Source: a bacterium
Lineage (GTDB): Bacteria > Patescibacteriota > Minisyncoccia > Sungbacterales > GWA2-42-14
Assembly (NCBI GenBank): GCA_030649305.1
Contig: JAUSFV010000026.1
Span: forward strand, 1-38,941
Length of the DNA stretch: 38,941 nucleotides
Reading direction: 5' to 3'
Shown here: positions 7,475-34,860 of the stretch, one piece after another
Position numbering within the stretch: position 1 is the stretch's first letter
How the letters are laid out: every line of letters begins with the position of its first letter
Translations under genes and position numbers: made by a program
The notes under the pieces: model-generated
Seen by the model: only the letters and a program-made list of their open reading frames with translations
Database searches by the model: none
Told to the model about the DNA's origin: nothing

Positions 7475-7565
7475 TAGAAGCAAAATTAAACGCCACATAT
7501 CACGCAAAATTATACGCAAATAGCGTTTATGATTGCGTTACGGTCTGCGTTTATTATTGCTTCTA
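7475..7565. repeat. family B inverted repeat, copy 1 (pilN/pilO junction)
   Basis: Begins TAGAAGC and ends GCTTCTA, with internal words AACGCCA, TAGCGTTTAT and GCGTTTATTATTGCTTCTA. It is the most diverged of five family B copies in the pilus cluster. Confidence 0.8.
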
Positions 7566-8156: not shown

Positions 8157-8241
8157 AAGCTAATAATACGCCAACGGCTACGCCAGTATGACGCCAATAG
8201 CGTTTATCATGGCGTATCATCTGGCGTTTGTGTGGCTTCTA
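8154..8241. repeat. family B inverted repeat, copy 2 (pilO/pilP-like junction)
   Basis: TAGAAGC...GCTTCTA arms, with ACGCCAACGGCTACGCC on the left and GGCGTATCATCTGGCGTTT on the right. The first TAG is the pilO stop codon. Confidence 0.85.
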
Positions 8242-8247
8242 CGTTAT

Positions 8248-8514
8248 ATGAACCGACAAACAATTTTTACCATCATTCTTGTGATAGTACTCGCGGCACT
8301 CGGGGCGCTTTGGTATGTGTATTTTTCCGGGCGCTCCGCGGAAGACACGGATGGTCCTGCGGGTGTTGATGTGGGCGTGTATCAGCGCGTCAAAGATCTT
8401 CGGCTTGATGTGGCGCTGTTTGACGACCCGGTTTTTCGGGAATTGAAACAAGAAACGATTCCGCCGCCCGTATCACAGAGTGTCGGGAGGAGCAATCCGT
8501 TCCTACCGTTTTAA
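8248..8514 (+). CDS. short PilP-like membrane-anchored protein
   Basis: 88 residues from the ATG at 8248; an apparent longer frame starts inside the repeat and is not used. One transmembrane helix (about 6-26) followed by a short extracytoplasmic tail ending SVGRSNPFLPF. A GR-x-PF ending after pilO is reminiscent of the PilP region that contacts PilN/PilO, but the protein lacks the PilP beta domain. Best read as a small pilus-associated subunit; the name PilP is not secure. Confidence 0.65.
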   Translation: MNRQTIFTIILVIVLAALGALWYVYFSGRSAEDTDGPAGVDVGVYQRVKDLRLDVALFDDPVFRELKQETIPPPVSQSVGRSNPFLPF

Positions 8515-10434: not shown

Positions 10435-10438
10435 TAAA

Positions 10439-10552
10439 ATTTCTAATTACTAATTTCTAATTGGTCTAATAAAATCCCAAACTTTGAAATGACCAGTGAC
10501 TAAATAGATTTTAGACATTAGACATTTTGACATTAGGTATTTATTAGAAATT
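10439..10552. repeat. family A inverted repeat, copy 1 (pilB/pilin junction)
   Basis: Begins AAATTTCTAATTACTAATTT and ends TATTTATTAGAAATTT. The interior carries CCCAAACTTTGAAATGACCA, which recurs at 18520-18669 and, reversed, at 24186-24317. Confidence 0.85.
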
Positions 10553-10569
10553 TGGGGAAGAACTATACA

Positions 10570-11007
10570 ATGGATTTAATACCGATTAACAATAAAAAAT
10601 GGCAGAGTGGAGGATTCACTATTATTGAATTGTTGGTGGTGACGGCAATTATTGCTTTGCTCGCGTCCGCTATTTTTGTAACGCTTTCATCAGCCCGCGC
10701 CAAGGGACGGGATGCCACGCGCGAACAGCACATCAAGACGCTGCAAAGCGCTCTTGAATCGTTTTATACGAATGCGCGCCGCTATCCCATATGCGATCCC
10801 GGAGAGTTTGTCACCGGCTCCGATTGTTTGTCCGTTGATCTTGTCAATGCCGAAGCGATCGCGGCCTCTCCTCTTGATCCGCTGAACCAAGGAAACAACC
10901 GTTATTTTTATGAATCGGTTGATGGCGTTGATTATGTGATTACCTATTATTTGGAAACTGACGGTATACCGGCAAAATCAGCCGGGGAGAATCAGGCCAC
11001 ACCCTAG
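10570..11007 (+). CDS. type IV pilin-like protein
   Basis: 145 residues from the ATG at 10570. Prepilin motif SGGFTIIELLVVTAIIALLA with cleavage expected between Gly and Phe after a leader of about 15 residues, and Glu at +5. The hydrophobic N-terminal helix is followed by a charged segment AKGRDATREQHIKTLQSALE and a small C-terminal domain with two Cys (CDPGEFVTGSDC) that may form a disulfide. It should be a pilin or pseudopilin. Its TAG stop starts the next family B repeat. Confidence 0.88.
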   Translation: MDLIPINNKKWQSGGFTIIELLVVTAIIALLASAIFVTLSSARAKGRDATREQHIKTLQSALESFYTNARRYPICDPGEFVTGSDCLSVDLVNAEAIAASPLDPLNQGNNRYFYESVDGVDYVITYYLETDGIPAKSAGENQATP

Positions 11008-11094
11008 AAGCCAATATATACGCCACCGGTTACGCCAATAAAACGCCAGTAGCGTTTATCATAGCGTATCATTTGGCGTTTATTGTAGCTTCTA
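11005..11094. repeat. family B inverted repeat, copy 3 (pilin/response regulator junction)
   Basis: TAGAAGCCAATATATACGCC at the left; GGCGTTTATTGTAGCTTCTA at the right. The first TAG is the pilin stop codon; the right arm ends 5 bp before the regulator's ATG. Confidence 0.88.
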
Positions 11095-11099
11095 CGTTT

Positions 11100-11465
11100 A
11101 TGAAAATCCTCATTGTAGACGACGACAGCTTAATTCAAGATATGTACGCGCTTAAACTGAAAGAGGCGGGGTTTGAGGTGTTTACCGCGCATGAGGGAAA
11201 AACCGCGATTGCAACCGTGGCAAAAGAAAAACCCGACGCGGTGCTGCTTGATGTTATTCTTCCGCAGATGGACGGGTTTGAAATTTTGCAGGAATTGAAA
11301 ACGCAAGGACTCCTTGCCGCGACGCGAGTGATTATGCTGACAAACGTCGGTGAACGAAAGGATGTGGAGCGTGGGATGGAGCTCGGGGCGTCCGATTATA
11401 TCATTAAAGCAAACTTTACCCCCTCGCAGGTGGTGGAGAAAGTTAAAAAAATTCTCAAAAAATAG
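11100..11465 (+). CDS. single-domain response regulator (PilG/PilH/CheY-like)
   Basis: 121 residues, one receiver domain and no output domain. The acidic pocket is D7-D9 in ILIVDDDS, the phospho-acceptor is Asp51 in VLLDVILPQMDGFEIL, the conserved Thr is in VIMLTNVGE and the Lys in DYIIKANFTPSQ. The start is the ATG at 11100; an earlier ATG belongs to the repeat. Lying between a pilin and pilT, it probably switches pilus motor activity after phosphorylation by a histidine kinase not in this window. Its stop TAG is the first codon of the next repeat. Confidence 0.92.
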   Translation: MKILIVDDDSLIQDMYALKLKEAGFEVFTAHEGKTAIATVAKEKPDAVLLDVILPQMDGFEILQELKTQGLLAATRVIMLTNVGERKDVERGMELGASDYIIKANFTPSQVVEKVKKILKK

Positions 11466-11553
11466 AAGCCAATATATACGCTACCGGCTACGCTATATAA
11501 AACGCTAATAGCGTTTATCATGGCGTATCATTTGGCGTTTATTGTTGCTTCTA
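11463..11553. repeat. family B inverted repeat, copy 4 (response regulator/pilT junction)
   Basis: TAGAAGCCAATATATACGCT at the left and GGCGTTTATTGTTGCTTCTA at the right, very close to copy 3, but with GCC changed to GCT at several places on the left arm. It provides the regulator's stop codon. Confidence 0.88.
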
Positions 11554-11558
11554 CGCAC

Positions 11559-12626
11559 ATGAGCCAAAAAGAAGATTTTGAAGACCTTATTCAAACGGTT
11601 CTGAAGCAAAACGCATCAGACCTGCATATTACCGTCGGAAGGCGGCCGACACTTCGTATTGACGGAGGGCTCGTGGAGCTCGTGAAGCGTCCGATTGTGA
11701 CCGAAGAGCTTGCGGAGGAATATGTCAATATTTTACTTTCTTCCGAAGAGAAAGAAACGTTTCTCCGTAATAAGGAAATTGACCTCTCCTACGCGTATAA
11801 GGATATCGTGCGTTTTCGCGTTAATGTATTTTTTCAACGCGGCTTTATGGGGGCGGCACTTCGTCTTATTCCTACAAAAATTCGGACGGTTGAAGAATTG
11901 CATCTTCCTCCGATTCTTATTGATTTGGTTCAGCGTCCGCAGGGGTTTTTTCTCGTGGTGGGACCGACGGGGCACGGGAAAACAACAACACTTGCGGCTC
12001 TTGTTGATTATATAAATCATACGCGGAATGAACACATTATCACGATTGAGGACCCGATTGAGTATTTATTCTCGTCTGACCGTGCTATCGTGGACCAGCG
12101 TGAAGTTGGGATTGACACACGAGATTTTCAGGCGGCTTTGCGTTCGCTTTTTCGCGAAGATGTTGATGTGGGGATGGTCGGAGAGATGCGCGATGTTGAG
12201 ACTATGGGAACCGCGGTGACTGCTGCCGAAACCGGTCACTTGATTCTTTCCACGCTTCATACCAATAACGCGGCGCAGACCATTGACCGTATTATTGATA
12301 GTTTCCGCGCGGACCAGCAAGCACAAATCAGGACGCAACTGGCATCCACGCTGATTGGTATCGTTTCGCAACGCCTCATCCCCCGTATTCAGGGGGGGTT
12401 GATTCCCGCGGCAGAAATTATGATCGCGAATCCCGCGGTACGCAATCTTATCCGTGAAAATAAAATTCACGAAATTGACCTTGTGATTGAGACAAGTTCG
12501 GAGCAGGGGATGGTGAGCTTAAACCGCGCGCTCGTTGATTTGGTTCGCAGGGGTGAAATTACCATTGAGAATGCGGTAAATTACTCCCTGCATCCGGGAG
12601 AGTTGCAGTCGTTACTGAAGCGATAG
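11559..12626 (+). CDS. pilT: twitching motility retraction ATPase PilT
   Basis: 355 residues from the ATG at 11559. An extended reading frame (MAYHLAFIVAST) comes from the repeat and is rejected. Motifs: ASDLHITVGRRPTLRIDG, Walker A VVGPTGHGKTTTLAAL, Asp box ITIEDPIEYLF, Walker B VGMVGEMRDVETMGTAV, His box LSTLHTNNAAQTIDRIID, then AAEIMIANPAVRNLIRENKI. The order and length match PilT. It should depolymerise the pilus in the cytoplasm, opposing PilB. Confidence 0.95.
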   Translation: MSQKEDFEDLIQTVLKQNASDLHITVGRRPTLRIDGGLVELVKRPIVTEELAEEYVNILLSSEEKETFLRNKEIDLSYAYKDIVRFRVNVFFQRGFMGAALRLIPTKIRTVEELHLPPILIDLVQRPQGFFLVVGPTGHGKTTTLAALVDYINHTRNEHIITIEDPIEYLFSSDRAIVDQREVGIDTRDFQAALRSLFREDVDVGMVGEMRDVETMGTAVTAAETGHLILSTLHTNNAAQTIDRIIDSFRADQQAQIRTQLASTLIGIVSQRLIPRIQGGLIPAAEIMIANPAVRNLIRENKIHEIDLVIETSSEQGMVSLNRALVDLVRRGEITIENAVNYSLHPGELQSLLKR

Positions 12627-13950: not shown

Positions 13951-14065
13951 TAGAAGCCAATTAATGCCATGCGCCTGCGGGCGCGATACGCTATTGAAAC
14001 GCTATACGGATATTTTTGGTTGGCGTTTATCATGGCGTATCTTCTGGCGTTTCGTGTGGCTTCTA
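13951..14065. repeat. family B inverted repeat, copy 5 (after pilC)
   Basis: TAGAAGCCAATTAATGCC on the left, GGCGTTTCGTGTGGCTTCTA on the right, with an extra GC-rich CGCCTGCGGGCG hairpin on the left side. It is the longest copy. Confidence 0.85.
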
Positions 14066-14085
14066 CGTCCTGTGGATAAGTACTT

Positions 14086-14722: not shown

Positions 14723-15097
14723 ATGAATGCAGCTGTTTTTTTGAGTGGAGGTATCGGACTTGCAGTAGGAAGTTTTTTGAATGTTGTGATGTATCGCTAC
14801 GACCCCGCCTTTTCGGAAACGATGAGGCGGGCCGCCCCGACTTCGGTCGGGGCGAGCCTCGCCCGGAGAGGGCGGGGTCGTTTTAAATACGGCGGGCGTT
14901 CGTTCTGTTTCTCCTGTAAAAAAGAACTTTCGTGGTTTGAGTTGATTCCGCTGGTCAGCTTCATTATCCAGAAGCGGAAATGCAGAGGATGCGGAGCACT
15001 GATTTCGTGGCAATATCCAGCCGTTGAATTGGGGACTGCGACAGCATTTGCCCTTATCGCTTATCAGTATTTTGCCGGAACACTTTTGTTTCTGTGA
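14723..15097 (+). CDS. pilD: prepilin peptidase PilD, N-terminal half
   Basis: 124 residues. GGIGLAVGSFLNVVMYR is the A24 N-terminal motif, followed by a zinc-type pair of CxxC motifs (CFSC and CRGC) and LSWFELIPLVSFI and ISWQYPAVELGTA. In intact enzymes this cytoplasmic and first-helix region precedes the catalytic helices on one chain. Here it ends with TGA at 15097 and the catalytic part is a separate frame at 15241, separated by a family A repeat. A GC-rich palindrome at 14801-14879 is translated in frame between the YR and the first Cys pair. Either the two halves work as a two-chain enzyme or the gene is broken. Confidence 0.85.
   Translation: MNAAVFLSGGIGLAVGSFLNVVMYRYDPAFSETMRRAAPTSVGASLARRGRGRFKYGGRSFCFSCKKELSWFELIPLVSFIIQKRKCRGCGALISWQYPAVELGTATAFALIAYQYFAGTLLFL
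14801..14879. repeat. GC-rich palindromic insert inside the pilD N-terminal half
   Basis: Outer arms GACCCCGCC and GGCGGGGTC; inside is a second hairpin CCCCGACTTCGGTCGGGG. It is read in frame and adds about 26 residues (including RRAAPTSVGASLARRGRGR) at a point where related enzymes have only a few residues. Confidence 0.75.
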
Positions 15098-15106
15098 GTG
15101 AATATA

Positions 15107-15239
15107 AAATTTCTAATTGACCTAATTGACCTAATTTCTAATAAATTTCCAATGTCCGAATGCCTAATGTCGAAGAAGTTTTCGGGGCATTGAAGCTTGG
15201 GGTTTGATTAGATCAATTAGAAATTAGAAATTAGAAATT
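15107..15239. repeat. family A inverted repeat, copy 2, splitting pilD
   Basis: Left arm AAATTTCTAATTGACCTAAT and right arm ATTAGAAATTAGAAATTT, with a short GAAGAAGTTTTC/GGGGCATTGAAGCTTGGGG centre. It sits exactly between the two halves of the prepilin peptidase gene and carries stop codons. Confidence 0.88.
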
Positions 15240-15240
15240 T

Positions 15241-15747
15241 TTGTTCGCCTTCGATATTTTCGGTCTTCTCTACTACTTCGCCTTCGCATCACTCCTGATT
15301 GTCATTTTCGTCTACGATCTGAAACATAAACTCATTCCCGATTTCGCCACGTTCGGCATTCTTATTCTCGGCCTGGTTCGATTCGCCCCTATTTTCTACA
15401 AGCTACAAGCTACAAGCTACAAGCTCATTGCCGTTGATTTCCTTGCTACCTTTGTCGCCTTTGTCTTCTTCGGTTCCCTTTGGTACTTTTCCGGAGGCCG
15501 TGCTATGGGTTTCGGTGATGTAAAACTTGCTCCGGCACTCGTTTTGTTTCTCGGAGCGTCAAAAGGCGTTCTTGCAATGTTTCTATCTTTCTGGATCGGA
15601 GCGATTGTCGGAATTGTTTTGATGCTCGGAAAAAAAGCCGGTTGGAAATCGGAAATCCCATTTGGTCCGTTTCTTGCTTTGGGGGCGTTTGTCGCGCTAT
15701 TGTGGGGCGAGCAATTGATTGAGATTTATCTTAACCTGATGTCATAG
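15241..15747 (+). CDS. pilD: prepilin peptidase PilD, C-terminal catalytic half
   Basis: 168 residues starting at TTG (15241), the first codon after the repeat. Both catalytic aspartates of the A24 family are present: IVIFVYDLKHKLIPD and GRAMGFGDVKLAPAL (GxGD motif). Five or six hydrophobic helices. Between helices the sequence [12 protein letters not shown] is encoded by a CTACAAG repeat (15396-15426) read in frame. The frame differs from that of the N-terminal half. It should cleave prepilin leaders in the membrane if made. Confidence 0.87.
   Translation: MFAFDIFGLLYYFAFASLLIVIFVYDLKHKLIPDFATFGILILGLVRFAPIFYKLQATSYKLIAVDFLATFVAFVFFGSLWYFSGGRAMGFGDVKLAPALVLFLGASKGVLAMFLSFWIGAIVGIVLMLGKKAGWKSEIPFGPFLALGAFVALLWGEQLIEIYLNLMS
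15396..15426. repeat. CTACAAG tandem unit inside pilD
   Basis: Three and a half copies of CTACAAG, giving [10 protein letters not shown] in frame. The same unit occurs in ligA (21583-21619) and gatA (23722-23760). Confidence 0.8.
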
Positions 15748-16377: not shown

Positions 16378-16549
16378 ATGAAGCACGAAGCACGAAGCAC
16401 GAAATCCGAAACAAATTCTAAAAATAAAAAAAATATACTTCAAGCCGAAAGCGGCGTTTCAGGTTTTGGTATTTGGAATTTAGATATTGTTTCGAATTTC
16501 GGATTTAGAATTTCGAATTTCCATCGTAAATCCTTTGGATTTACGATGG
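16378..16549. repeat. family E inverted repeat, copy 1, translated as a prepilin leader
   Basis: Three GAAGCAC units, then arm 16400-16422 (starts CGAAATCCGAAAC) pairs with arm 16479-16501 (ends GTTTCGAATTTCG), 20 of 23 positions. It is followed by a separate perfect hairpin CCATCGTAAATCC/GGATTTACGATGG at 16521-16549 that spans the peptidase site codons. Confidence 0.85.
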
Positions 16550-17085
16550 TAGAAATTGTCATCATGCTCGGCATTATCACGATGGTATCACTCGTGGTTT
16601 TGGTTAATTTTCCCGCGGTGACGGAAACAATTTTTATCCAACGTTCCGGCCAGGAGATTACGGGGCTCTTGCGGCGAGCTCAAAGCATGTCGCTTGCGGT
16701 GCGTTCAGTAAAAGATCCTTCCACGGGTCTTATTCGTATTCCGCGCGGGGTGGGGGTTCGGTTTATACACGATACGGCAACCATGGTGCTCTTTGGCGAT
16801 TTAGACAACAATAATTTTTATGATGTGGGCACGGATGCGGTTATTGCGACATACGCGCTTGAGCGGAATTTGAAAACCGCGCTTGCAACGCCCACGCGCG
16901 ATCCTATTACCGAGCTGCATGTGGTGTTCGCGTCTCCCGATGCCTCCGTCAGTATTTTGGGGGAGACGCCGACGGATGACGTGGGACAGACGGAAGGCCG
17001 CGCTTCTATAAAAATTATTACGCCCGCTCTTTCGCTTGACCGCGTGGTGGAGGTTGCGATTACGGGGCAAATATCCGTCAAATAA
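16378..17085 (+). CDS. GspH/FimT-like pseudopilin with repeat-derived leader
   Basis: 235 residues. The cleavage site is SFG^FTMVEIVIMLGI with Glu at +5. The preceding 54 residues (starting MKHEARSTKSETN) are encoded by an inverted repeat, far longer than the usual 6-30 residue leader. No ATG, GTG or TTG lies in frame between 16378 and the cleavage site, so this start is the only ordinary one. The mature domain has RRAQSMSLAVRSV and GVGVRFIHDTATMVLFGD, as in GspH/FimT. It should be a minor component of the pilus tip complex. No ribosome site is visible. Confidence 0.82.
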   Translation: MKHEARSTKSETNSKNKKNILQAESGVSGFGIWNLDIVSNFGFRISNFHRKSFGFTMVEIVIMLGIITMVSLVVLVNFPAVTETIFIQRSGQEITGLLRRAQSMSLAVRSVKDPSTGLIRIPRGVGVRFIHDTATMVLFGDLDNNNFYDVGTDAVIATYALERNLKTALATPTRDPITELHVVFASPDASVSILGETPTDDVGQTEGRASIKIITPALSLDRVVEVAITGQISVK

Positions 17086-17089
17086 ACAT

Positions 17090-17260
17090 ATGAAGCACGA
17101 AGCACGAAGCACGAAATCCGAAACAAATTTTAAAAAAAATAAATTCCAAACCGGAAGCGGCGTTTTGAATTTTGGTATTTTGAATTTTGATATTGTTTCG
17201 AATTTCGGATTTAGAATTTCGAATTTTCAGAAGCGTAAAGCTTTGGGATTTACTCTTCTG
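17090..17260. repeat. family E inverted repeat, copy 2, translated as a prepilin leader
   Basis: It starts with the same 25 bases as copy 1 (ATGAAGCACGAAGC...) and shares GATATTGTTTCGAATTTCGG. It ends with hairpin CAGAAGCGTAAA/TTTACTCTTCTG (11 of 12) at 17228-17260 over the cleavage-site codons. The middles of the two copies differ. Confidence 0.85.
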
Positions 17261-17806
17261 GAGACCGTTGTCGCTCTTGCCATTCTTACCGCCGCGATTG
17301 TCGGTCCTATGTCTTTGGTTAGCCGCGGTATCGCAGGTGCCCGTACTTCTAAAAATAGAGTTATCGGGTCTTATTTAGCGCAGGAAGGTATGGAGGTTGT
17401 TCGCGGGATTAAAGAAAATAATGCTCTTGCCGGCAAGACCGCTAATGCGGGCGTATGCAATGATTCTGACCAGTGGGATTTCGGATTGTGTCCCGGGTCG
17501 GGGCCTCTGGCATGGCGCGCAAACATCTTGAACCTTACTCTTGAGCCGGGCGGAGACTCACCCGTTCTTTTGGATTATGATTCATCATCGGGCAATCCGG
17601 GTCTTTATAATTATCAATCTGGAAATCAAACTATCTTTACTCGGACGGTTGAGATTTTTGTTCCTTCCGGCCCGGAAGTTGACGCCGAATCGGGTTTTTC
17701 CATTCCCCCTGAAGATATACTTGATGTTGTTATCACGGTGTTTTGGCGCGAGGGGTTGAGCACGCGCGAAGTAGAGCTCGTAGAGCGGTTTTATAATTGG
17801 CAGTAG
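17090..17806 (+). CDS. GspI-like pseudopilin with repeat-derived leader
   Basis: 238 residues from the ATG at 17090, 5 bp after the previous stop. The cleavage site is ALG^FTLLETVVALAILTAAIV with Glu at +5, after a 53-residue leader coded by a second copy of the same repeat (MKHEARSTKSETNF...). The mature part has IGSYLAQEGMEVVRGIKEN, common in CPR pseudopilins, and a Cys pair. The final part (EVELVERFYNW) is a beta-rich end. It should join the minor pilin complex. An alternative start further upstream would overlap the preceding gene and is not favoured. Confidence 0.83.
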   Translation: MKHEARSTKSETNFKKNKFQTGSGVLNFGILNFDIVSNFGFRISNFQKRKALGFTLLETVVALAILTAAIVGPMSLVSRGIAGARTSKNRVIGSYLAQEGMEVVRGIKENNALAGKTANAGVCNDSDQWDFGLCPGSGPLAWRANILNLTLEPGGDSPVLLDYDSSSGNPGLYNYQSGNQTIFTRTVEIFVPSGPEVDAESGFSIPPEDILDVVITVFWREGLSTREVELVERFYNWQ

Positions 17807-17814
17807 GGGCGAAT

Positions 17815-17917
17815 TTCTAATTATTCTAATTTCTAATTGACCTAATAAAATCTCAATGTCTAAATTCAACCGTTTGGTCATTGATTAGAAATTAGGTTAA
17901 TTAGGAATTAGAAATTT
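17815..17917. repeat. family A inverted repeat, copy 3
   Basis: AATTTCTAATTATTCTAATT on the left, AATTAGGAATTAGAAATTT on the right; the centre contains CAATGTCTAAATTCAACCG. It fills the gap between two pseudopilin genes. Confidence 0.88.
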
Positions 17918-18512: not shown

Positions 18513-18519
18513 TACGCGA

Positions 18520-18669
18520 AAATTTCTAATTACTAATTTCTCATTGGTCTAATAAAATCCCAATTTTTGAAATGACCAAAACGACAAACAGGTATTAGGT
18601 ATTGCATCATTATATTTTTGTCATTCGACATTGATTAGAAATTAGGTCAATTAGATATTAGAAATTTTG
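18520..18669. repeat. family A inverted repeat, copy 4
   Basis: AAATTTCTAATTACTAATTT on the left and AATTAGATATTAGAAATTTT on the right. The centre has CCCAATTTTTGAAATGACCA, shared with 10439-10552 and reversed in 24186-24317. Confidence 0.88.
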
Positions 18670-22765: not shown

Positions 22766-24187
22766 GAGCTGAACAATTTAACCATCGCGGAAGCACGCGA
22801 GGGTCTTTCGCAAAAAAAGTTCTCCTCGCGTGAGCTTGTTGAAGCGTGCTTCGCCGAAATTCATAAGCGCGAACCGGAATTGCACGCGTTTCTTGAGCCG
22901 TTTTTTCACACGAAGCATCAAGCCGAGGAGAAAGAATTTAACGAGGGGGCACTTAGCGGAATTCCTTTTGCCATTAAGGACAATATTTTAATAAAAGGGC
23001 AGGTTGCCTCCGCGGGTTCAAAAATTCTTGAAAATTATAAAGCAAGTTATGACGCAACGGTCACAAAAAAAATGTGGGATGCGGGGGCACTCTTTATCGG
23101 GCGTACCAACATGGATGAATTTGCCATGGGCTCTTCCACGGAAAATTCCGCGTACGGCCCTACGAAAAATCCGTATGATGTATCGCGCGTTCCGGGGGGG
23201 TCATCCGGCGGTTCTGCCGCGGCGGTTGCCTCCGGCATGTGTTTGGGAGCGCTGGGTTCCGATACGGGTGGCTCCATTCGCCAACCCGCCTCATTTTGCG
23301 GAGTCGTCGGATTGAAGCCGACCTACGGCGCGGTTTCGCGTTTGGGCCTGATTGCGATGGCATCATCCCTTGATGTGATTGGTCCGATTACAAAAACCGT
23401 TGAGGATGCAGAGATTTTATTCAATGTGATTCGGGGCCGTGATTCGTTTGATTCGACGACAGCTGATTCTAGAATTACGAATAAGGAATTAGGAATTAAG
23501 GGATTGAAAATTGGTGTGCCGAAAGAATATTTTGGAGAAGGATTACATCCGGAAGTGAAAAAAGTTATTGAAAGCGCGATTAAAAAAATGGAGGAGGCGG
23601 GCGCTATCATTAAAGAAATTTCTTTGCCCCATTCAAAATACGCGCTTGAGGTGTATTATATTATTATGCCTGCGGAAGTATCGGCAAATCTCGCCCGCTT
23701 CGACGGCATCCGCTACGGGTCTAGCGTAGCTACAAGCTACAAGCTACAAGCCACAAGCTTATATGACGTATACGCAAAAACCCGCGCCGAAGGATTTGGG
23801 CACGAAGTGAAGCGGCGCGTGATGCTCGGCACGTATACGCTTTCGCACGGCTATTACGACGCGTATTATCTGAAAGCGCAAAAAGTGCGGCGGCTGATTC
23901 GGGATGATTTTGTAAAAGCATTTGAAGAAGTGGATATTATCGCGGGGCCGACCACTCCCGATGTCGCGTTTCGCTTCGGCGAGAAGGCAAATGACCCCGT
24001 GTCCATGTATCTTTCGGATATTTATACTGTGGCTATTAATCTTGCGGGACTTCCCGCGCTTTCTATGCCCGCGGGGTTTGTTGAGCGCGACGGCAAAAAA
24101 CTCCCGGTCGGGTTGCAGCTTGTCGGAAAATGGTTTGAGGAAGATGTCATACTATCAATAGGGAAGGAACTCGAAGAAATATTGTAA
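22757..24187 (+). CDS. gatA: Asp/Glu-tRNA amidotransferase subunit GatA
   Basis: 476 residues of the amidase signature family. The catalytic triad is Lys74 in PFAIKDNI, Ser149 in GGSSGGSAAAVASG and Ser173 in GSDTGGSIRQPASF. It hydrolyses glutamine and passes ammonia to GatB. The loop after ARFDGIRYG contains [15 protein letters not shown], coded by a CTACAAG repeat (23722-23760) where related proteins have a short variable loop before the conserved TRAEGFGHEVKRR. The catalytic core is intact. No good ribosome site is seen. It lies downstream of gatC across an antisense gene. Confidence 0.95.
   Translation: MSQELNNLTIAEAREGLSQKKFSSRELVEACFAEIHKREPELHAFLEPFFHTKHQAEEKEFNEGALSGIPFAIKDNILIKGQVASAGSKILENYKASYDATVTKKMWDAGALFIGRTNMDEFAMGSSTENSAYGPTKNPYDVSRVPGGSSGGSAAAVASGMCLGALGSDTGGSIRQPASFCGVVGLKPTYGAVSRLGLIAMASSLDVIGPITKTVEDAEILFNVIRGRDSFDSTTADSRITNKELGIKGLKIGVPKEYFGEGLHPEVKKVIESAIKKMEEAGAIIKEISLPHSKYALEVYYIIMPAEVSANLARFDGIRYGSSVATSYKLQATSLYDVYAKTRAEGFGHEVKRRVMLGTYTLSHGYYDAYYLKAQKVRRLIRDDFVKAFEEVDIIAGPTTPDVAFRFGEKANDPVSMYLSDIYTVAINLAGLPALSMPAGFVERDGKKLPVGLQLVGKWFEEDVILSIGKELEEIL
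23722..23760. repeat. CTACAAG insert in gatA
   Basis: Tandem GCTACAAG units read in frame as [10 protein letters not shown] in a surface loop position. Confidence 0.82.
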
Positions 24188-24317
24188 ATTTCTAATTGAC
24201 CTAATTTCTAATCAATGTCTAATGCAAAAATGTCTAATGTCTAAAATTTATTTAATTATTGGTCATTTCAAAAATTGGGGTTTGATTAGGAATTAGAAAT
24301 TAGATATTAGAAATTTA
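24186..24317. repeat. family A inverted repeat, copy 5 (after gatA)
   Basis: AAATTTCTAATTGACCTAAT on the left, ATTAGATATTAGAAATTTAT on the right. The centre TTGGTCATTTCAAAAATTGG is the reverse of that in copies at 10439 and 18520. Confidence 0.88.
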
Positions 24318-29265: not shown

Positions 29266-29582
29266 TTGCGGGGGCCGGAATTGCACCGGCGTCTCAAGGT
29301 TCTTTTTCGCCTTCTATTTCTAGAAAGAATGGACTATCCCATCATCCCGGAAGGATGCTTCCATTATAGTCTCTGAACCTTCTTCGAATGAATCGAAGCT
29401 TGGCTGCTGATTGCCGAATCTTTTCTTTTTTAAAGCGTTCGCGTCTATCCTTGCGGATTCCGTTGTCGCAAGAAAAGCTCTTACGGGTTTCCAGCAATTT
29501 CGGAAGTTTTTCCACATAATGTTGCCATCACGGGTCACAGTTTTTCTATGAGCCTCGCGAGGTACTGCTCCTCCACCCCGCG
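29266..29582 (-). tRNA. initiator tRNA-fMet(CAT) split by a group I intron
   Basis: Exon 1 is 29582-29548 and exon 2 is 29301-29266; joined they form a 71-nt cloverleaf. Acceptor CGCGGGG faces CCCCGCA, with the C1-A72 mismatch that marks bacterial initiators. D stem GAGG/CCTC has A11-U24, another initiator mark. Anticodon stem CGAGG/CCTTG with loop CTCATAA, anticodon CAT. T stem GCCGG/CCGGC. The intron lies between U36 and A37. CCA is not encoded. Unusual: the T loop is TGCAATT (G in place of U55) and the D loop is only seven bases, AGCAGTA. Confidence 0.9.
29302..29547 (-). ncRNA. group I self-splicing intron (246 nt) in tRNA-fMet
   Basis: The 5' exon end GGCTCAT pairs with GTGACCC (29538-29532) to make P1 with a U-G pair at the splice site; the intron ends in G at 29302. 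P/Q elements AAATTGCTGGAAACC (29500-29486) and AATCAGCAGCC (29412-29402) form P4 (TGCTG/CAGCA). R and S elements TTCAGAGACTATAATGG (29377-29361) and GGGATAGTCC (29340-29331) form P7 (GACTAT/ATAGTC). P8 is CATCC/GGATG, P2 GGAA/TTCC and P9 CTTTCTA/TAGAAGG with a GAAA loop. No homing endonuclease is encoded. It should splice with a guanosine cofactor. Confidence 0.88.
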
Positions 29583-34534: not shown

Positions 34535-34760
34535 TGGTTTTGCGTTATGGCCGGAACGGGCTTATTGCCAATTCAGCCATATTTTATAGAAATCTCTCGT
34601 TACTTTGATTAAGTTATAGCAGATCTTACTTCACTGCGCTACTCTTATTATGAAGTCCTATCCTGGGGGCTGGATTTTTAGAAAGTTGGGTGGTAGTATC
34701 AAAATATACAATTTAGTGACCTAACCCTTTCGGCTTCGGCTGGGAGGTATGGTTAAAAAT
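34535..34760. other. intergenic region without a gene
   Basis: No open frame or promoter that I trust. A weak hairpin around 34720-34750 (ACCTAACCC with GGGAGGT) may be part of the RNA that follows. The region separates divergent operons, so it should hold the start signals for both. Confidence 0.5.
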
Positions 34761-34860
34761 CGCGAGAAGCATAAAAAACCCATCATCGGGGTCGCTTCTC
34801 GCGTTATGTGGGGAAACCCGCATATGAGCCGTAAGGCTCTACCTGGTGATGGGCTTTTTG
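34761..34860 (+). ncRNA. structured RNA candidate with pseudoknot and terminator
   Basis: Plus-strand pairings: S1 CGCGAGAAGC (34761-34770) with GCTTCTCGCG (34794-34803); S2 CCCATCATC (34779-34787) with GGTGATGGG (34845-34853); S3 ATGTGGG-GAAA-CCCGCAT (34806-34823); S4 GAGCC-GTAA-GGCTC (34826-34839). S2's left strand lies in the S1 loop, so S1 and S2 form a pseudoknot or exclude each other. Both hairpin loops are GNRA only on the plus strand, and two G-T pairs hold only there, so the RNA is plus-strand. TTTTT follows S2, like a terminator. I recognise no named family. It could be a small RNA or an attenuator. Confidence 0.65.

Follow-up and report, generated by a model that had tools for sequence, protein, structure and literature searches.

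Rickettsia palindromic elements are repeats of about 100-150 bp that lie both in intergenic regions and in frame within unrelated conserved genes, where they are apparently tolerated (PMC10969869, PMC2229807). Enterobacterial RU elements also fuse in frame with genes, and the signal peptide of YPO1552 is formed partly by a MITE (PMC2229807, PMC2759123). Prepilins carry leaders of 6-7 residues (type IVa) or 15-30 residues (type IVb), Geobacter producing forms with 10 and 29 residues (PMC6201914). The glycine at position -1 decides prepilin cleavage and the leader remains in the cytoplasm (PMC6497953).

The locus described here combines features of these systems. Its repeat is, like the Rickettsia elements, palindromic, dispersed and in frame within unrelated conserved genes. 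Unlike them, with their one conserved peptide per family, it shows no conserved peptide, two or more of its frames being used, and it contributes a putative cleavable leader whose start codon lies at the edge of the repeat. As in the enterobacterial RU/ERIC/YPAL-type MITEs, a small mobile repeat supplies coding sequence. YPO1552, however, is a putative exported protein of unknown function with a predicted signal peptide, whereas a class III leader on conserved pilus subunits is concerned here, in two adjacent genes and in a pattern that recurs across a class. The leaders resemble the long ones of type IVb prepilins and Geobacter PilA, which are cut by PilD, in being hydrophilic and ending in Gly-1 (PMC6201914), but they differ in their 53-54 residues and in their derivation from a repeat. 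REP/BIME sequences with their RAYT transposases are likewise small palindromic dispersed repeats, and three Y1_Tnp genes are present in this genome, but no GTAG-tagged REP structure was seen. Searches of the open-access literature turned up no description of prepilin leaders made by repeats, of GFTPLE inserts or of GIY-YIG elements with inverted repeats in this group. That small palindromic mobile repeats can fuse in frame with genes is already known; class III leaders of 53-54 residues made by a repeat are a new variation on it.

Two adjacent pilin genes open with the same repeat

In the window, the whole 38,941-nt stretch of DNA that was analysed, two minor-pseudopilin genes are adjacent: pil1 (ORF 16378-17085, + strand) and pil2 (ORF 17090-17806, + strand). 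They comprise the following features.

16378..16380, + strand: ATG of pil1, whose G is base 1 of the first GAAGCAC unit; no Shine-Dalgarno motif
16378..16539, + strand: pil1 leader, MKHEARSTKSETNSKNKKNILQAESGVSGFGIWNLDIVSNFGFRISNFHRKSFG, 54 codons, with no ATG/GTG/TTG inside
16380..16520, + strand: repeat copy 1, 141 nt, palindromic element with arms of 7-nt units
16540..17085, + strand: mature GspH/EpsH-type minor pseudopilin (pil1; F+1, E+5), by AlphaFold and fold match
17090..17248, + strand: pil2 leader, 53 codons counted from the ATG
17092..17226, + strand: repeat copy 2, 135 nt, nearest relative of copy 1
17165..17182, + strand: alternative TTG codons of pil2, 17165-17167 and 17180-17182 (leaders of 28 and 23 residues)
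17249..17806, + strand: mature GspI/PilV-type minor pseudopilin (pil2)

The preliminary description had placed one palindromic repeat at the start of both genes, and this was borne out. Both ORFs open with ATGAAGCACGAAGCACGAAGCACGAAATCCGAAACAAATT (MKHEARSTKSETN), their first 40 nt being identical, and the repeat is self-complementary, with arms (16393-16411/16497-16515 in copy 1) built from the 7-nt units GAAGCAC, GAAATCC and GAATTTC. Its DNA fold beats all 200 shuffles (z = -5.2 for copy 1 and -2.8 for copy 2). Leader lengths of 53-54 residues before the G^F cleavage site were also confirmed, with 54 in pil1 (F codon at 16540) and 53 in pil2 (F codon at 17249). Both leaders are hydrophilic and positively charged (GRAVY -0.7/-0.6; 9-10 K+R versus 3-4 D+E), and a search inside them for a second G-F with Glu at +5 returned none. 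The leader frame was also open in 6-8% of dinucleotide shuffles for each leader; the open frame alone is weaker evidence than the repeat itself.

Copies 1 and 2 share 88% identity over a 99-nt block and 95% over a 56-nt block, against 70% for the sole other long copy, which indicates that one pilin repeat was copied from the other. Since they are near-duplicates, the two leaders were not counted as independent cases, and the pil2 leader was ruled out as independent evidence. Their codons differ by 12 nonsynonymous and 1 synonymous changes, plus indels, so that the leader bears no sign of amino-acid constraint. The earlier suggestion that frame and length were kept in both genes, in the sense of selection on the leader, is not supported by near-duplicates that differ in this way. 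Misassembly of a metagenome contig might also have placed one repeat twice: the assembly is apparently a draft, with 54 contigs, and 706-712 nt separate the near-identical copies. We find this scarcely credible, as the copies differ at 13 codons plus indels and have different genes as flanks, in an order that relatives maintain.

The repeat is dispersed and read in frame in unrelated genes

The 7-mer pattern GAAGCACGAAGCACGAA was found 7 times in the window (at most 3 mismatches) compared to 0.06 expected by chance, which argues that the repeat is real. Searches with the two copies yielded a dispersed family, whose other copies are more diverged. Six of the 14 copies examined lie wholly or almost wholly inside ORFs of at least 150 aa, those of pil1, pil2, TrmD, MurD, PolX and a PHP-type protein, and all six are in frame. 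The repeat-coded peptides of TrmD (ILRNSKSKTLNSKQILNSKFKK) and MurD are unaligned or poorly matching stretches in comparison with solved structures. The repeat is read in at least two frames (pil1 and the PHP protein versus TrmD) and, because reading frames vary among host genes, the family conserves no peptide. Several intergenic copies are closed in the frame that the pilins use, so that an open frame, though common, does not follow automatically. No Rfam family was found at the repeat. With regard to MITE criteria, its arms are self-complementary, its ends vary among copies and, by inspection, no target-site duplication was recognised.

Other repeats and RNAs were noted in passing. The TrmD gene (L008 1263-1991) contains two distinct in-frame repeat families, ILRNSKSKTLNSKQILNSKFKK and QATSYKLQT. 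A second intergenic inverted-repeat family, of about 91-100 bp, lies between pilus genes, and another repeat family occupies gaps between pilus genes. Matches to a Group I intron and LOOT RNA, at 29310-29557 (- strand) and 34718-34840 (+ strand), exceeded Rfam gathering scores.

7475-7565, 8186-8251, 11005-11103, 11463-11562 and 14009-14074: TAGAAGC...GCTTCTA family
10436-10555, 15101-15240, 17812-17917, 18519-18667 and 24178-24302: AATTTCTAATTGACC-type repeats

Judging from sequence comparison, we consider it likely that the two leaders of this bacterium, which has a tiny genome and whose nearest named relatives place it in the Patescibacteria, are translated copies of this dispersed palindromic repeat, a non-autonomous element that would have landed between start and G^F and that the prepilin peptidase would remove.

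Start codons and leaders in relatives

In pil1, the ATG at 16378 is the sole standard start ahead of G^F, whereas pil2 has in-frame TTG codons at 17165, 17180 and 17243, corresponding to leaders of 28, 23 and 2 residues. The statement that neither gene has an alternative start before the cleavage site consequently stands for pil1, devoid of ATG, GTG and TTG, and falls for pil2. The missing Shine-Dalgarno before both ATGs is uninformative, since a Shine-Dalgarno-like motif precedes only 2 of the 23 starts in the window. The repeat had also been credited with its own ATG. This codon is found at the repeat edge in the two pilin copies only; in other genomic copies the alignment to the query begins at position 6 or 10, and the ATG is therefore not a feature of the repeat family. 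It is either the old start of the gene, with the element inserted right behind it, or a product of the junction.

Orthologues of pil1 and pil2 were gathered from 113 relatives, giving 131 usable pilins. An in-frame ATG, GTG or TTG was present upstream of the cleavage site in all 131, with no stop met first, and the median nearest start was 10 codons ahead of F. If non-standard starts were in use, some such genes should hit a stop before any start; none does, and such starts are thus disfavoured. Comparison with orthologues lacking the repeat, as the preliminary description had proposed, revealed short leaders, with possible starts 4-15 codons ahead of F in the same family. Obligate leaders of 35-54 residues, defined by the absence of a start within 33 codons (starts less than 4 codons before F being ignored), occurred in 7/131 pilins, that of pil1 being the longest.

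These data bear on the alternative that the repeat is a 5' UTR, translation starting at a non-standard codon (for example the ATT in the shared RISNF, with a leader of about 10 residues) or, in pil2, at TTG 17165 or 17180. Short leaders are indeed the norm, the pil2 TTGs would yield 28 or 23 residues, and the leader codons are free of amino-acid constraint. However, a standard start is in frame in every pilin of the set, including those with none within 33 codons, pil1 would require a rare non-standard start, and in neither copy does a stop interrupt the frame after the ATG. We regard this alternative as unlikely. The proposal that the repeat ATG serves as start and the repeat as leader appears, as far as sequences can tell, well supported by the comparison with the 131 orthologous pilins.

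Repeat-made leaders recur in relatives. The leaders of L069, L060 and L036 have 7, 12 and 67 matches in their own genomes (the leader itself counted) and so match dispersed repeats there, which indicates that such leaders arose several times, from unrelated repeats, probably because the leader is cut off anyway. In a PilC/T2SSF control, an N-terminal extension was found in 0/28 relatives (28 of 30 loci being usable); the contrast with 7/131 pilins is not statistically strong and too small to prove pilin-specific targeting. A PilB scan of contigs retrieved no named close relative covering the pilins, the nearest (69%) lying on a contig of 3.5 kb. Nor did we find a genome of the same genus that lacks the insertion, hence no empty site was seen. 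Separately, the pilin leaders of several genomes (L083, L108, L120 and L135) include GC-rich palindromes that, immediately ahead of G^F, encode peptides resembling PAGGQG/PTGRQ/PIGRQG.

A hairpin covers the cleavage codons

In both genes a hairpin stands over the G^F codons, downstream of the repeat proper.

16521..16549, + strand: perfect 13-bp hairpin of pil1, CCATCGTAAATCC-TTT-GGATTTACGATGG, spanning the G^F codons
17228..17260, + strand: imperfect hairpin of pil2 over the G^F codons, with 14-nt arms, 12 paired

The pil1 stem is the longest centred on G^F among the 131 pilins. A description of the two hairpins as ending at G^F was ruled out, their stems being centred on it and reaching +10 or +12. 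The long leader, or an mRNA stem at G^F, might be functional and tune translation, folding or delivery of the minor pilins. The perfect stem of pil1, strongest of the 131, and the imperfect one at the same place in pil2 could be so interpreted, as could the inverted repeats that end precisely at G^F in relatives (see below), and the two prepilin leader isoforms of Geobacter differ in role (PMC6201914). Such a function nevertheless seems improbable to us in view of the 12 nonsynonymous versus 1 synonymous differences between the copies, of the short leaders and absence of a stem in most orthologues, and of leader sequences that are unrelated across genomes.

Mature pilins and prepilin peptidase

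Downstream of the leaders, the cleavage-site motifs are GFTMVE in pil1 and GFTLLE in pil2, and each mature part is an uninterrupted ORF that retains the conserved motifs. In the pil1 family, conservation begins exactly at F+1 and Glu+5 is invariant (19 sequences aligned); the alignment was made on mature parts of orthologues only, and the leaders, listed separately, share nothing among them. AlphaFold modelled the pil1 leader as disordered (pLDDT about 50), followed by a helix (residues 53-107) and a beta domain, both mostly above 90. The best PDB fold match of this model was EpsH of Vibrio cholerae, with probability 1.00 but an E-value of only 0.006. For pil2, N_methyl scored above the Pfam cut-off and PilV/GspI weakly, below it. 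Nearby genes encode GspE/PilB, GspF/PilC, a GspG/GspH-like pilin and the prepilin peptidase, which is split.

14723..15097, + strand: N-terminal (A24_N) half of the prepilin peptidase, in its own ORF
15241..15747, + strand: catalytic half of the prepilin peptidase, with both Asp motifs (VYDLKHKLIPD, GFGD)

The gap between the halves (15098-15240) is filled with repeats. In seven further genomes of the order the peptidase is a single ORF. The ORF of the catalytic half opens with TTG (15241), no ATG lying nearby, and a repeat peptide of 12 residues is read in frame within it.

The split peptidase, together with the position of the repeat where the short leaders of orthologues start, could be taken to mean that insertion removed the proper start and that the pilins are decaying, as pseudogenes or uncleaved proteins. 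This is highly unlikely, given the intact mature ORFs and the high-confidence model of pil1, and given that the split form with both catalytic Asp motifs is kept in four genomes of the family (this one, L321, L322 and L330).

Inverted-repeat elements at the cleavage site in relatives

In order to locate inverted repeats relative to the cleavage codons, their right-arm ends were counted per offset from -60 to +60 around G^F in the 131 pilins. Ends at G^F (offsets -1 and 0) were found in 8/131, and away from this peak typically 0-2, and at most 5, per offset. One type consists of perfect or near-perfect hairpins ending GG-TTY (L036, L060, L087). The other shows the twin motif K-G-F-T-P-L-E...F-L-T-G-F-T (L061, L086, L074), with variants in L033, L038 and L121 and an out-of-frame case in L068. 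This GFTPLE...FLTGFT motif corresponds to an element whose termini are inverted repeats, CCCCGTTAGA...TCTAACGGGG or variants. The sequence GGTTYACCCCGTTAGA (at most 1 mismatch) was present in 84/286 genomes, and the reversed control in almost none.

Outside pilins, a perfect 4-bp duplication flanked 8/20 copies of the CCCCGTTAGA element, compared to 1.3 expected from re-paired flanks, the duplicated 4-mers being TTTA, TTCA, TTGA, TCAA and TGAA; the element thus has the terminal inverted repeats and target-site duplication of a MITE. In pilins it is inserted at the TTYA of GG-TTYA-C, the Gly-Phe-Thr codons, and its GGGG followed by the duplicated TTYA rebuilds G^F-T at its right end. GFTPLE inserts were in frame and open in 6/7 cases of the ortholog set, and the out-of-frame inserts (L068, L239, L240) contain an internal ATG in the pilin frame, which makes ribosomal bypass over the inserts, also considered, unnecessary.

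Single-domain GIY-YIG ORFs with the same or similar flanking inverted repeats were found in L300, L305, L307, L312, L314 and L318. The element spans about 275-292 bp (276-292 at these six loci), and the short elements probably have their full-length counterpart in these units. In L215, each of two adjacent pilins contains a 275-bp insert of this type and, in one of them, the GIY-YIG ORF is in frame within the leader (Pfam PF01541, E = 1.1e-14). The pil1 and pil2 genes share their outcome with the GIY-YIG-type inserts but carry a different element. We put forward only tentatively, as a possibility we lean against, that small mobile elements, among them the GIY-YIG element and its short derivatives, insert preferentially at the Gly-Phe-Thr cleavage codons of prepilin genes in this class of bacteria, and that what they encode becomes a cleaved leader, pil1 and pil2 being a looser instance.

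Discussion

We directly observe an element, its dispersal, its in-frame fusion with conserved mature pilins and the recurrence of this arrangement in relatives. We propose that, in one minor-pseudopilin gene, the repeat was inserted behind the start codon and ahead of the G^F codons, presumably by transposition, and that a near-identical copy then spread to the adjacent pilin gene. The arms being poor in stop codons, the frame would have remained open, with initiation at the ATG on the 5' edge of the element, whether old or junction-made. The product would be a cytoplasmic leader of 53-54 residues, cut after Gly-1 by the prepilin peptidase. Extra hydrophilic residues should be harmless, because the leader is cytoplasmic and its last Gly decides cleavage. 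The mature pilin being unchanged, the insertion would be close to neutral, tolerated rather than visibly selected, and we read the cleavage site as permissive. Counted against the repeat-made leader are the 6-8% chance of an open frame in shuffles, the possible TTG start of pil2, the split peptidase, a leader length exceeding the cited ranges and the lack of a same-genus genome without the insertion among those found.

Insertion into a part that is removed before the protein works would offer selfish repeats a route to become protein harmlessly, and a mechanism for very long prepilin leaders. In genomes of this kind, both gene callers and the IVa/IVb classes based on leader length can be misleading. 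A testable claim also follows, concerning the length of leader that a prepilin peptidase will accept. If the Gly-Phe-Thr codons are indeed a preferred landing site, the insert would be removed at the protein level, as splicing removes introns and inteins. With confirmation, the related element of the sister genomes would stand as a case of a mobile insertion that a protease undoes.
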